23,656 nucleotides of DNA from a virus, in IMG/VR virus record IMGVR_UViG_3300045772_000026, positions 1-23,656 of that record; one strand, written 5' to 3'. Numbering within the stretch: the stretch's first letter is position 1; every line of letters begins with the position of its first letter. The translations under genes and the position numbers were made by a program. Shown in pieces: positions 449 through 23,656 of the stretch. The notes beneath the pieces were generated by a model. That model did not search any database, was not told the DNA's origin, and saw nothing but the letters and a program-made list of their open reading frames with translations.

Positions 449-1483
449 TCAAAGACTACGCTCCTCATGCAGAGGCTTGCCGTACCTGTCCAGCGGCCCA
501 GCGGCGTACTTGACTAGATCGCGTATCCACTTTCGCGGAGGATCTGCATTGTTCACATCCTGCGAACGCGCACGATTTTTCAGTAGCTCTTTGAACGCCC
601 ACAAAACCACCCCAGGATTCGAGCGCATAAATTGCCGTAAAGCTCGGTCTTCAACATCCGTCCAGGGGCACGGAATTCCCCCACCATCGCCGGCACTCCA
701 AAACTGAAAAATCTCCTGCTTGAAACTCTCGAAACCGACATCCGAACCTTTATCTGTTTTTGGACCATCAGCCCCATTTGTGTACTGGGGAGCAATCTTT
801 TTTGGCGGTACCCCCACTGCGTCCGCAGAATTTTTATGTAGATTTCCCCCACCACTGCTCTCCGAGCGCGTCTCAGCGCCTCCTGATCGTTTTCGCTTTC
901 CTTTCGTATCAACAGTTTGCGCTGGTGCCACAGCACTTTCCGCCGAGCTGGTGGGTGCGTTCGCATCGGCCGTTGGCGCTGAGTTTTTTGACGGGTCCGG
1001 TTCATCCCGATTCCCCCGCGCCGCAGCGTGGGGGTTAGGGGGAGTACTTGCTTTTAATACTGTACTGTCCTTGGAGTTCGACGATTGCCGAGGCAATCCC
1101 TTAGTGATCGCTGAGCGATTCGACTGCTCTTTTCCCCACCTGATTGCATTGCCTTTTAGTGCCCCATCGCGCCGCGATTCGGTTATCCGTTTCGCCTCTG
1201 ACCACTTCTCAAAACCAGCTTGGTTTCTAAGGCGGCCGCCTGGCAAAGAGATGAATTTTTTAAGGATTCTATCTTTATGTTGAGCCCATTCATCTGCTGT
1301 TAAACCACACATTTCAAAGAGTTCTTGATCGTCCCCAGGCAAACTGCATTCATCTGTCTGCCACTGCGCAGTGAGCAGGTAAATATATCCCAGTCGCGCC
1401 ACAGATTCAGATCTCTGAACAAAAGAGCTTGCCTTAAAAGCATCGATCTCGAAAGGCATCCAGGTACGCCATTTTTCTGACAA
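449..1483 (-). CDS. DUF1376/YdaU-like phage replication protein
   Basis: 344 residues. The N-terminal ~115 residues (KWRTWMPFEIDAFKAS, ARLGYIYLLTAQW, LPGDDQELFEMCGL, GGRLRNQAGFEKW, then RRDGALKGNAIRWG) follow the pattern of the DUF1376/YdaU family found in phage replication-initiation proteins. Residues ~115-250 are a low-complexity Ser/Ala/Lys-rich linker. The C-terminal ~80 residues (PWTDVEDRALRQFM, WAFKELLKNRARS, PPRKWIRDLVKYA) look like a small helical DNA-binding or helicase-loader-interaction domain; that role is inferred. The start is TTG at 1483 with GGAG seven bases upstream; the next in-frame Met is residue 9. The gene is transcribed leftward away from the 11-bp repeat array, and one repeat-like unit (1106-1116) lies inside the linker-coding part. 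A replication gene beside and containing iteron-like DNA is a usual phage origin arrangement. Confidence 0.75.
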   Translation of the reverse strand: MSEKWRTWMPFEIDAFKASSFVQRSESVARLGYIYLLTAQWQTDECSLPGDDQELFEMCGLTADEWAQHKDRILKKFISLPGGRLRNQAGFEKWSEAKRITESRRDGALKGNAIRWGKEQSNRSAITKGLPRQSSNSKDSTVLKASTPPNPHAAARGNRDEPDPSKNSAPTADANAPTSSAESAVAPAQTVDTKGKRKRSGGAETRSESSGGGNLHKNSADAVGVPPKKIAPQYTNGADGPKTDKGSDVGFESFKQEIFQFWSAGDGGGIPCPWTDVEDRALRQFMRSNPGVVLWAFKELLKNRARSQDVNNADPPRKWIRDLVKYAAGPLDRYGKPLHEERSL

Positions 1484-1575
1484 GTTTCATCTCCATTCCG
1501 GGGGTGAAAAGCAACTTTCAAAGTCTGTTTTCAGGTCAAATTCAACGCCCAAAAAACAACACCTGAATCGCTGAC

Positions 1576-1623
1576 GATCGCCAACGGATCACTGAGCGAT
1601 CGGTCAGTGATCCGTTGGCGATC
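1576..1623. repeat. 48-bp near-perfect palindrome at left end of the array
   Basis: Arms 1576-1595 and 1604-1623 are exact reverse complements over 20 bases. The 8-base centre gCGATCGg is itself palindromic except for one G/G pair (1596/1603). The palindrome comprises array units 1-4 and the GATC that opens unit 5, and it can form a long hairpin or cruciform. It may be a strand-opening or initiator-binding element of the presumed origin. Confidence 0.85.
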
Positions 1624-1784
1624 ACTGAGCGATCACTGAGCGATCACTGAGCGATCACTGAGCGATCACTGAGCGATCGGTAAGGGATCGGTGAGGGATG
1701 GCTAAGCGATAGGTGAGCGATCGGTGGGAGATAGCTGACTGACAGGTGAGCGATCGCTGAGGGATCGCTATCCGATCAACATCA
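1576..1784. repeat. 19-unit, strictly 11-bp-phased iteron-like array
   Basis: Starting at 1576 a GATC or GATC-like tetramer recurs every 11 bases without a break to 1774, giving 19 units. Units 2 and 5-9 are identical (GATCACTGAGC). Others vary around GATC(A/G)(C/G)TGAG(C/G), for example GATCGGTGAGG at 1686 and GATCGCTGAGG at 1752. The phase is never lost even where the sequence has diverged (units at 1697, 1708, 1730 and 1741). Eleven is not a multiple of three and stop codons recur in every frame, so this is not coding. The spacing is about one helical turn, so a bound protein would sit on one face. The location beside a replication-type gene suggests origin iterons; this function is inferred. 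Confidence 0.85.
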
Positions 1785-1890: not shown

Positions 1891-2133
1891 CTATGCCGCA
1901 GCTCCATCGTCCAGAACAGAGGAGAGAGTTTCAAAAAACGGGTCAGGAGGAGCAGCTATTACCTTTGAGGCGGTTGCCACACAAGCCATGCGAACAAAGG
2001 CCGTGAAGCTCAGTCCGCGCCGATCTGCGGCGCGCTGGATAAGATCAACATCCTCCTGGCTGGCGAAGCGAATGATCTTCTGAACGCCGTTGGGAATATA
2101 TTTCTTGCGAGGTAATTTGTTCTTGTTCGTCAT
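1891..2133 (-). CDS. Ribbon-helix-helix-like small DNA-binding protein
   Basis: 80 residues. A basic N-terminus (MTNKNKLPRKKY) is followed by a short strand (QKIIRFASQEDVDLI) and two helices (DLIQRAADRRGLSFTAFVRMACVATASKVI). That layout and the GLSFTAFVRMACVATA motif fit ribbon-helix-helix proteins such as antitoxins, MobC-like proteins and Arc-type repressors. No toxin-like partner is adjacent, so a phage regulator is more likely than an antitoxin. It is divergent from the RusA-like gene across only 24 bases that contain an imperfect palindrome. No good SD precedes the ATG, and a TATAGT sequence lies about ten bases upstream, so a leaderless transcript is possible. Autoregulation of the divergent promoters is inferred. 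Confidence 0.6.
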   Translation of the reverse strand: MTNKNKLPRKKYIPNGVQKIIRFASQEDVDLIQRAADRRGLSFTAFVRMACVATASKVIAAPPDPFFETLSSVLDDGAAA

Positions 2134-2157: not shown

Positions 2158-2694
2158 ATGGGGAAGATGAGCGCGGCGGCGGACCGGGCAGCCTGGACCA
2201 AGTTTGTAGAGGATCGCGAACCCCAGCCCGAGGCCCAGCGCAAAGTAAGTCGACTTAGTTTTATAGTCGAGTGCAAAGGCGTTCCCCAGGGCAGTATGAG
2301 CGGCGTGGCCATCACCCGCGAGGACGGATCGCCGGGAACCATCTTCAAGGCGGACAACAAAGCAACACACCCCTATCGCAACCAGGTGGGCTGGGCGGCT
2401 GCCAGAGCGAAGGCCGACGCAGGCCTGGCTGGATTGCTATTTGCGCGAAGCGGTATGGCTGTGCGCATTGGCTTGACCTTTGTTTTTGCGCGGCCCAGGT
2501 CGGTGGCGAAGACGCGGATCTATCCGGTCGTAAAACCCGATCTGGACAAACTTGCTCGAAGCACATGCGATGCGATGACCGGAATTATCTGGGAAGACGA
2601 CGCGCAGGTGGTGGGCTTTGACACGCTGGAGAAAATTTATGGAGATGTGGCTTGCGTGCATGTGAGCATACGACTGGCAGAGGAGACGAATTGA
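2158..2694 (+). CDS. rusA: RusA-family Holliday-junction resolvase
   Basis: 178 residues. The signature KPDLDKLARSTCDAM...WEDDAQVVGF (residues 126-154) is that of RusA: acidic residues D128, D130 and the EDD cluster (146-148) would bind metal, and K131 is conserved. Family members cut Holliday junctions and help resolve phage recombination or replication intermediates. The RusA core begins near LSFIVECKGVPQGS (33-46). The first ~30 residues are an Ala/Arg-rich extension, and the first ATG has no SD, so the start is uncertain (2167 is an alternative). The family is usually ~120-140 aa, so this copy is long. It overlaps the start of the following Cys-rich gene and opens the rightward operon. 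Confidence 0.85.
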   Translation: MGKMSAAADRAAWTKFVEDREPQPEAQRKVSRLSFIVECKGVPQGSMSGVAITREDGSPGTIFKADNKATHPYRNQVGWAAARAKADAGLAGLLFARSGMAVRIGLTFVFARPRSVAKTRIYPVVKPDLDKLARSTCDAMTGIIWEDDAQVVGFDTLEKIYGDVACVHVSIRLAEETN

Positions 2695-3047
2695 GCGATG
2701 AGAACGAACTACTCGAAACGGCTGAACCTTTCGAGCTTGAGTTTTTTCATTGTGTTGTGTGCGGGGAACCGATTCCAAACAGCCGCGTGATTCGCAAGGC
2801 CGTCACCTGCTGCGAAGAACATGCGACTGTTTTGAAAAATGCCCGGCGCAGGGTGCGCGATAACTCGAAATGCAGGCTCTGCAATCGGCCGGCTACGCCT
2901 GAAGAGATCGCAAGCTGGCGCCGGTGGAGAAGGGAAGCCTACGGGGAAACAAGGGGCAGGAAAGCAGCTCCCAAATCTGAAGATGCGCCCCAGGATGATC
3001 AACCCGCGCTTGCCAACATAGAGGAAAAGGAAGAGGCTCAAGCGTAA
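2691..3047 (+). CDS. Small Cys-rich (zinc-type) protein
   Basis: 118 residues if started at TTG 2691, which overlaps the RusA-like gene's TGA (ATTGA) and has GAGGAG five bases upstream. A longer reading from TTG 2652 lacks an SD. Cysteines occur as CVVCGEPI, a TCCEEH cluster and a CRLC pair, enough to form one or two zinc sites. A basic stretch (NARRRVRDNSK, WRRWRRE) suggests nucleic-acid binding. The tail is acidic and Gln/Glu-rich. The family is not recognised. Zn-finger proteins of this kind often sit between recombination and packaging genes in phages. Confidence 0.65.
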   Translation: MSDENELLETAEPFELEFFHCVVCGEPIPNSRVIRKAVTCCEEHATVLKNARRRVRDNSKCRLCNRPATPEEIASWRRWRREAYGETRGRKAAPKSEDAPQDDQPALANIEEKEEAQA

Positions 3048-3684: not shown

Positions 3685-3710
3685 CAACCCAAACAGACGA
3701 AGGAGAGGCG

Positions 3711-4040
3711 ATGGCGAAGGAAGAGAAAGTCAAGCACGCGCTCGGCGGCAAGGAACGCAAGGAAGAAGAACGCGAAAAGAAGACGCATACCCACGGCGTG
3801 CATTACGAGCGGGCGGACAATGGCGGCGTGAGGGCGCATGTGCATGTGCATCACGGCGAAGGTCCGAGAAGCGAAGGGCACAGCCATACCGAGGAGCATG
3901 TCCTGCCCGACATGGAAGCAGCGGGCGAGCACCTCCAGGAGCACATGGGCGACCAGCCGGCCACTGGCGAGATGCCGCCGCAGGAAGGACCGCCGCCCGA
4001 AGCTACGCTGGCACCGGGTGCCGAAACAGGAGGGATGTAG
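3711..4040 (+). CDS. Small histidine-rich protein
   Basis: 109 residues starting at ATG 3711, chosen because AAGGAGAG lies just upstream; an earlier in-frame ATG at 3660 falls inside the hairpin. The N-terminus is strongly charged (KEEKVKH...KERKEEEREKK). A His-rich centre follows (HTHGVHYER, AHVHVHHGEG, GHSHTEEH), and the tail is Pro/Glu-rich. Thirteen His residues occur in all. No family is recognised. The alternating HxH pattern could bind divalent metal; this is inference. It sits directly before the Tat-signal-like gene and two genes upstream of terL. Confidence 0.65.
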   Translation: MAKEEKVKHALGGKERKEEEREKKTHTHGVHYERADNGGVRAHVHVHHGEGPRSEGHSHTEEHVLPDMEAAGEHLQEHMGDQPATGEMPPQEGPPPEATLAPGAETGGM

Positions 4041-22404: not shown

Positions 22405-23656
22405 ACGGATTGCCGCCCTTGCCGCCAGGCGCGACGCTTGCCCCGCCGCCGCAGGGAGGCGGAGGCCTGCCGCCCCTGCCGCCAGGCGCCAAGCTGGCCG
22501 GCGCGCCCACGCCGCCCGCTGCCCCGGCAACAGGGATGCAGCGCGCGAACGCGGCTTTGACCGGAGAGAACGAACCAGACCAATGGCGGTCTCCGGTTTT
22601 GGGCGGGATGATGAGCGGGGCGCTGAAAAGCGCGAGCAGCCTGGTGGGCAACATCTTGGATATGACGGGCCGCGCTGTGCACGCGCAGGGGCAAGCGGTG
22701 GCGCCGCAGGCAGGGGCAGTGAATGACGCCATGCTGAAGCACACCAAGGACGCTGCTGACTGGCTACGGAGCGGAGGGCAGCCGGCGGGATTTTGGGAAA
22801 ACGTGGGGGCGGTGGGCGAGCAGGTGCTTGAATACCTGGGCACGGACGGGATACTGAAGCTGGCAGGACCTGCCGCCGGAGCTGGCGTGAAAACCCTGGA
22901 GGCCGCCGACCACTTGAAACAGGCGCAAAATGTGGCGAACATCTTGGCAGGTCACCCCAAGCTGGCGGGCCTGGTCGCCATCGGCCTGAAAGCCAGCAAA
23001 GACGCGGCCATGCTGGGCACACAGACCTATCTCCACACCGAAGACCCGGAGCAGGCGGCGACGGCGGGCGCGATCGGCGGCGGGACGAGCGCAGTGGCCA
23101 GTTTGCTGGGCGCCGGCATTACGGCCCTGAAAAATGCAGCGCCGACGACGACGAAGGTTGGCGAGGAAACCGTTCCGGTGATGGCCGACCAACTAGACAA
23201 GGAAGGCGGCTTGACCGGGAAGACCGCAACCAAGGAATCGCCGGCGATTGCGGCGGAGCAGCAAAAGAGCTTGCAGGCAGTGACTGCGAACACGGCCAAG
23301 CGCGGAGCCATGACGGCGATCGACAAGGTGAACGCCACCCGAGGGGCATTTCCGGCGGCGGAAGCAGGAGCGCCCCAACTGCCCGCTGGCGAAGGCGCGC
23401 AGCCTTTCACCTTCACACTGGAAACCACGCCGCCTACCGAAACACCCACCGGGGAGATGGCGCACAGCGCCGCGCAGCGCCAACAGGCTGCCTTCAAAGA
23501 TCCGCACTTTTTGACCGAAAGCGCGCCGACGCGGACAGGCGAGGTTGCACCTGGCGGCCGCGCGATCGCCGGAGCCGAGGGCGCGACAGGCGCGGACATT
23601 CGCACCGGAAAGACACCCGAAGACGCCGGGGAGACGGTTGGGGGCGGCGGAACACT
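22383..23656 (+). CDS. Large internal virion protein, partial at window end
   Basis: Open from ATG 22383 to the edge (at least 424 residues; no stop in the window). ATG is preceded by GAGAGGAGG (3-base spacing) and overlaps the previous gene by 22 bases. The start has a tandem duplication: GLPPLPPGATLAPPPQGGG followed by GLPPLPPGAKLAG. The LPPLPPG motif is one I associate with N-termini of podovirus internal virion proteins. Later segments are Ala/Gly-rich (GGMMSGALKSASSLVGNILDM; AATAGAIGGGTSAVASLLGAGITAL), possibly membrane-active. No lytic-transglycosylase motif has been reached by the window end, though such proteins often carry one further on. Confidence 0.6.
   Translation, partial: MGPGAALNGLPPLPPGATLAPPPQGGGGLPPLPPGAKLAGAPTPPAAPATGMQRANAALTGENEPDQWRSPVLGGMMSGALKSASSLVGNILDMTGRAVHAQGQAVAPQAGAVNDAMLKHTKDAADWLRSGGQPAGFWENVGAVGEQVLEYLGTDGILKLAGPAAGAGVKTLEAADHLKQAQNVANILAGHPKLAGLVAIGLKASKDAAMLGTQTYLHTEDPEQAATAGAIGGGTSAVASLLGAGITALKNAAPTTTKVGEETVPVMADQLDKEGGLTGKTATKESPAIAAEQQKSLQAVTANTAKRGAMTAIDKVNATRGAFPAAEAGAPQLPAGEGAQPFTFTLETTPPTETPTGEMAHSAAQRQQAAFKDPHFLTESAPTRTGEVAPGGRAIAGAEGATGADIRTGKTPEDAGETVGGGGT

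Follow-up and report, generated by a model that had tools for sequence, protein, structure and literature searches.

The window, the whole stretch of DNA analysed here, comprises all 23,656 bases of an IMG/VR viral record, probably a fragment of the genome of a soil phage (fuller relatives measure 32–44 kb). Its minus strand encodes a small protein (126–428), a DUF1376 protein (449–1483) and a ribbon-helix-helix protein (1891–2133), followed on the plus strand by genes for RusA, a zinc-finger-like protein, terminase, portal and lysozyme; a tandem array of 11-bp units occupies the space between the DUF1376 and ribbon-helix-helix genes, directly upstream of DUF1376. The features on which the interpretation turns are as follows.

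449..1483, minus strand: DUF1376 protein, 344 aa, proposed lambda-O-like initiator (Pfam DUF1376, 1.2e-8; AlphaFold2; PHROGs of relatives)
1093..1122, no strand assigned: extra unit copies in the DUF1376 gene, codons ~121–130, at the end of the N-terminal domain
1505..1544, no strand assigned: candidate unwinding element, AT-rich, between the array and the DUF1376 start
1576..1784, no strand assigned: proposed iterons, a 19-unit, 11-bp-phased array (consensus TGAGCGATCRC / GATCACTGAGC)
1576..1623, no strand assigned: 48-bp near-perfect palindrome, possible cruciform (units 1–4, 46/48 self-complementary)
1891..2133, minus strand: ribbon-helix-helix protein, 80 aa, TacA-antitoxin-like, rival candidate for array binding (Pfam TacA1, 6.1e-5)
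2158..2694, plus strand: RusA-like Holliday junction resolvase, divergent neighbour, conserved in relatives
2692..2702, plus strand: weaker outlying unit match, TGAGCGATGAG, at the end of rusA

Array units start at 1576, 1587 and onwards to 1774, giving 19 starts in strict 11-bp steps with zero phase slips, as an initial annotation made from the sequence had described from its GATC-like anchors; an exact GATC opens 15 of the 19 units, the other four beginning GATG, GATA, GATA and GACA. The six identical units of that annotation were recovered (6/19, each GATCACTGAGC), as was the non-coding character of the array, no open reading frame of at least 60 aa overlapping 1576–1784. Tandem Repeats Finder reports 1567–1769 (period 11, 18.5 copies, score 152), and the lag-11 match fraction of 0.74 lies 15 s.d. 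above shuffles, with a value of 0.69 (8 s.d. above shuffles) in the drifted half (1675–1774); mean pairwise identity between units is 7.3/11. The claim that spacing is conserved more strongly than sequence thus holds inside the array, but not across relatives, where neither is kept.

Three features had been overlooked. Units 1–2, reverse-complemented, are units 3–4, forming a 48-bp palindrome whose strand (1576–1623) has a folding energy of −31 kcal/mol (z −9), and the inversion keeps the 11-bp phase because GATC is its own reverse complement; near-matching units also lie at 1101 and 1112 within the DUF1376 gene, 11 bp apart and in phase. The A+T content of 1505–1544 is 67.5%, matched by 0.27% of the record's 40-bp windows, and such an AT-rich element is less marked beside the repeats of most relatives than in the window. 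A separate imperfect 29-bp repeat (2.8 copies) is present at 22411–22499, close to the end of the fragment.

The DUF1376 protein passes the family cut-off (Pfam accession: PF07120; 35.6 bits vs 30.1). It has no PHROG match itself; of 18 DUF1376 family members, 12 hit PHROGs called primosomal protein, and the replisome organizer, DnaD-like and O-like PHROGs are each hit by single members. No sequence family common to lambda O and the window protein was found at the thresholds used, and a PDB sequence search with the DUF1376 profile returned nothing up to E 10. An AlphaFold2 model predicts a disordered linker (residues 132–247) between two folded domains, a C-terminal one at 248–331 and an N-terminal one that appears winged-helix-like; the corresponding N-terminal domain of one relative (L062), predicted alone, reached pLDDT 89. 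The nearest folds to the N-terminal domain are those of RepA_N initiators, ORC2 winged helices and DnaD, weak matches at Z 5–6 (RepA_N structures 4pql, 5kbj, 4pt7 and 4pta at Z 5.1–6.1, under 8), and the best structural matches overall are likewise weak (Z 6.1–6.3; Foldseek against PDB, E 0.05 or worse). The predicted viral structures that match this domain are DUF1376 proteins, with replication and replisome-organizer proteins ranking below them.

A tblastn search with the DUF1376 protein of relative L025 identified 17 INPHARED records, including Rac-SA53 ydaU and a protein annotated as DNA replication protein O, and 13 of the 17 regions were read, with H3, H11, H13 and H15 set aside as duplicates or close relatives. 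Across these 13 cultured regions a helicase, DnaC-like or replication P gene often follows the DUF1376 gene, which in several regions adjoins DnaC/DnaB-type genes or occupies the place of lambda O. Cultured DUF1376 genes, including those of the E. coli Rac type, carry 11–12-bp-spaced repeats at the codons of the lambda O iterons: the repeats lie at codons about 116–150, and the lambda iterons (39034–39118) correspond to O codons 117–144. The repeated words differ between phages, with TGTTCAAACA in the DUF1376 genes of E. coli phages; CGTTGAACG-type words in Pseudomonas phage PfDIW6, in 11-bp steps at 2843, 2854, 2865 and 2876 of the locus and recurring at codons 61–64; and tandem ATGCTCCAAGCA in cyanophage Lbo-JY16 (L103:2674, 2842, 2854). 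The 11-bp word of Lbo-JY16 is also that of four environmental phages bearing TGCTTGGAGCA, with identical encoded peptides (DAWSIA and APS).

A codon-shuffle test over codons 95–165, from which Rac-SA53 (a near-duplicate of 683R6) was excluded, detected excess repeated 7-mers (p < 0.05) in 9 of 12 cultured genes (8/9 in a first set and 1/3 in a second; the signal of L116 rests partly on a 6-bp microsatellite) vs 11 of 116 control segments, and excess matching at lags 10–13 in 7/12 vs 8/116. Lambda O gave p 0.001 in the word test and did not pass the lag test; among 20 environmental loci, passes numbered 12 for words and 8 for lag, and for the window gene neither test was significant (p 0.12 and 0.19). 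In Pseudomonas phage PfAn1, an apparent unannotated DUF1376 gene (L116:2456–3409) lies upstream of the annotated replication protein P.

Environmental relatives were collected by terminase searches of IMG/VR, yielding 14 loci and then 48, the second set taking in most of the first; a search with the DUF1376 protein alone passed no related locus, and the ribbon-helix-helix protein led to 15 distant ones. The host is presumably a member of the Acidobacteria, a placement drawn from a distant Tunturiibacter phage terminase (26%) because bacterial genome contigs yielded no terminase relative. Gene order around DUF1376 is conserved among the terminase relatives. The window's array is absent from all loci examined, none of which has so high a copy number, and neither its sequence nor its 11-bp spacing is kept: L019, with 48% N-terminal identity, has a different repeat at lag 12 in place of lag 11, and a matrix of the window unit scanned over L019 and four others did not cluster at their loci. 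The initial annotation had regarded relatives that keep the gene without the array as telling against an origin; the array is indeed lacking and the gene kept, but most relatives have other repeats there, with 12 of 19 non-duplicate relatives carrying 10–13-bp repeats, often palindromic, in the same place.

This figure derives from 21 loci in which the DUF1376 gene plus 700 bp was compared with shuffles: repeated 9-mers exceeded all 60 shuffles in 14, from which the window and L026 (a duplicate of L023) are subtracted, and 7 of the 21 showed no repeat excess. At a log-likelihood of at least 14, a threshold picked after looking (the shuffle comparison was not), 14/21 DUF1376 regions stand against 4/106 structural control windows. 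The words are diverse: TGCTTGGAGCA in L023, L025, L052 and L062; TGCTTGAAGCA or TGCTTAAAGCA in L024 and L049, the latter with five tandem copies of 49–50 bp just upstream of DUF1376 (L049:2296–2510) and TGCTTAAAGCA in each; TCCGTCAACGGA in L031; CTAGCTGAGCTAG in L055; TACTCCGAGTA in L046; and ACGGTGACCGT in L019. In one 42.7-kb relative, all ten copies of TGCTYNRAGCA fall within 416–2488. GC skew, proposed earlier as a check, does not switch clearly at DUF1376 in the four fuller relatives analysed.

Such clustering bears on a rival reading of the array as a minisatellite grown neutrally by slippage where intergenic DNA tolerates it, for which the six identical units beside drifted ones, suggestive of recent expansion, and the lack of any comparable copy number among relatives both speak. 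A 26-copy 11-bp array of similar unit (TGAGCGATSAT, with TGAGCGATCA common to the window unit) also occurs at L032:3906–4194 and L033:1–288, on contigs that are not recognisable relatives of the window phage, and fits the same account. Against it, most relatives, and cultured DUF1376 phages too, have repeats of unrelated sequence clustered around DUF1376, and these co-vary with a single protein domain, making a neutral minisatellite quite unlikely. A related proposal, that the unit belongs to a host minisatellite family, was not borne out by a strict triple-unit genome scan, which produced 18 scattered matches in unrelated taxa, none Acidobacteria by title, and says little more than that. Elsewhere, a 39.6-kb viral contig carries an 11-bp array of TGATCCCGAAG in 8.5 copies (L034:2737–2832).

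In some relatives dispersed sites reach up to 3 kb outside the DUF1376 gene, unlike the compact lambda origin, and this reach, together with the position of the array directly upstream of DUF1376, would suit operators for DUF1376 or another regulator that control transcription of the DUF1376 operon and have no origin function. A consensus scan found neither a sigma-70-like promoter nor a terminator at the array, and the missing promoter, with in-gene sites at the codons of the lambda iterons that favour an origin, renders purely transcriptional operators very unlikely. Dam methylation, which the initial annotation had raised for the repeated GATC, is unsupported as the point of the array and was rejected as a conserved feature because relatives' sites in the same place contain no GATC; outside the array the record holds 97 GATC sites, where composition predicts ~83 for the record as a whole.

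Which protein tracks the repeat sequence was addressed by two co-variation tests, from both of which the duplicates L026 (of L023) and L047 (of L046) were removed. Classes set by eye on 13 loci, assigned after looking, were tracked by the DUF1376 N-terminus (AUC 0.99, 0/2000 permutations), with values of 0.54 for the C-terminus, 0.65 for the ribbon-helix-helix protein and 0.70 for TerL; with the two TGCT...AGCA classes merged, the N-terminus gave 0.90 and TerL tracked too (0.80, 6/2000). Because these labels had been set after looking, a label-free test was run on 20 loci (11 for the ribbon-helix-helix comparison) with the N-terminal coding DNA masked. Pairs of loci with common repeat words were more alike in the DUF1376 N-terminus (AUC 0.84, 1/2000), and no tracking was seen for the C-terminus (0.57), TerL (0.49) or the ribbon-helix-helix protein (0.56, 499/2000). 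Natural swaps show the same dissociation: L028 and L029 are 91% identical in TerL, 77% in the C-terminus and 67% in the ribbon-helix-helix protein, but 20% in the N-terminus, and have zero repeat words in common, and L049 and L031 are 62% identical in the C-terminus and 18% in the N-terminus.

The ribbon-helix-helix protein encoded at 1891–2133, proposed earlier as a possible binder and related by its family profile to PDB entry 7ak7 (0.0029), offers a further explanation, in which its dimers coat the 11-bp direct repeats as an operator repressing the DUF1376 operon or as a centromere. ParR of plasmid R1 coats the 11-bp direct repeats of parC in this way. In favour of this explanation, the gene adjoins the array in the window, repeats are present in 10 of 11 loci with the gene vs 3 of 9 without (Fisher p 0.017), and the fuller relatives are phage-plasmid-like, 7 of 12 encoding ParA. 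Three loci (L046, L049 and L055) nevertheless have repeats without such a gene, and in L024 the ribbon-helix-helix protein is close to those of L023 and L025 (46–49%) but the DUF1376 N-terminal domain and site word are as in L049. Unlike at a ParR/parC-like centromere, the repeat sequence of the window family does not track the ribbon-helix-helix protein; in the one relative examined in detail, ParA is encoded at the opposite genome end, where TGCTYNRAGCA is absent, and nothing array-like was found near ParA in two relatives. Binding by this protein is unsupported because loci with similar repeat sequences are not more alike in it, its presence alone accompanying repeats, and an operator or centromere of this type is unlikely.

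Among the 12 fuller relatives, the ParA-type ATPases and the absence of any tyrosine integrase (0/12) make a phage-plasmid life for the family plausible. The right end of G003 encodes ParA, a DnaC/IstB-like ATPase and a clamp-loader-like ATPase, and a DnaC/IstB-like gene is present in three fuller relatives; the window fragment has no match to this gene and none to ParA. Beside ParA in G003 (L077:3884–4729 and 3685–4008) lies a small protein resembling a ribbon-helix-helix partition partner by eye, with no Pfam match.

From the co-variation of the repeats with the DUF1376 N-terminus, the PHROG names of its relatives and the in-gene repeats of cultured phages at lambda O iteron codons, we infer that the array units are probably iterons to which the DUF1376 protein binds at a lambda-O-like origin, the set having expanded and mostly moved upstream of the gene. 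The suggestion of an origin with cooperative initiator binding, already made in the initial annotation, is upheld to this extent. The DUF1376 protein would act as lambda O does at a phage replication origin, its winged-helix-like N-terminal domain binding the units cooperatively along one helix face; the 48-bp palindrome and the adjoining AT-rich stretch would open, and the C-terminal domain would recruit the helicase through a DnaC-like loader, whose gene would be found at the rightmost end of the fuller relatives and be absent from the 23.7-kb window fragment. In most DUF1376 phages the sites would reside within the initiator's own coding sequence, immediately after the part for the DNA-binding domain; in the window phage, amplification would have placed most of them upstream of the gene, and phages would exchange the N-terminal domain and the site sequence together.

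The layout has its precedent in the lambdoid origins (PMC7466680). In lambda the sites lie in the linker-coding DNA of a two-domain initiator (O codons 117–144), and the putative in-gene sites of the window fall at codons 121–130; AT-rich DNA accompanies the iterons in both. Unlike the 18-bp annotated iterons of lambda, the window units are 11 bp long, form a tandem run of 19 and lie mostly beyond the gene. In E. coli Rac, for which the consulted passages state an active origin, oriJ (PMC3945230), Rac-SA53 YdaU is a DUF1376-type primosomal protein beside ydaV with TGTTCAAACA-type repeats in its gene, although Rac shows no large upstream array and the placement of oriJ in ydaU is only putative. 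The closest published precedent for the paired change is the PLE RepA_N replicon of Vibrio cholerae satellites, where, in the portion of the account available, the DNA-binding N-terminal domain co-varies with semi-palindromic iterons and the C-terminal domain is conserved (PMC8263062); unlike in the window, the PLE iterons are ~30 bp, lie in a separate intergenic origin of an integrated satellite and pair with RepA_N, not DUF1376. Support for the helical-phase argument comes from plasmid iterons, at which half-turn separation is described as abolishing cooperativity in the available text (PMC4980987). The earlier remark that no array of this form had been described is correct for the window sequence as far as the searched collections go, but helical phasing of iterons is in itself familiar; the literature searched contained no paper joining DUF1376 and iterons.

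More broadly, there is about an even chance that DUF1376 proteins are widespread phage initiators carrying their own origin in the gene as helically spaced palindromic iterons, the iteron sequence, but not its position, changing along with the DNA-binding domain by exchange, and that in the window such an origin has spread beyond the gene as an array of 19 units, in a family of phages with a possible plasmid lifestyle. If so, a domain still lacking an assigned function, which occurs in phages of Acidobacteria (the presumed host here), cyanobacteria, and alpha- and gammaproteobacteria, would gain both a function and a binding-site code; the replication start sites of DUF1376 phages would become predictable, and these phages would offer a natural series of swapped initiator–site pairs in which to study the evolution of recognition.
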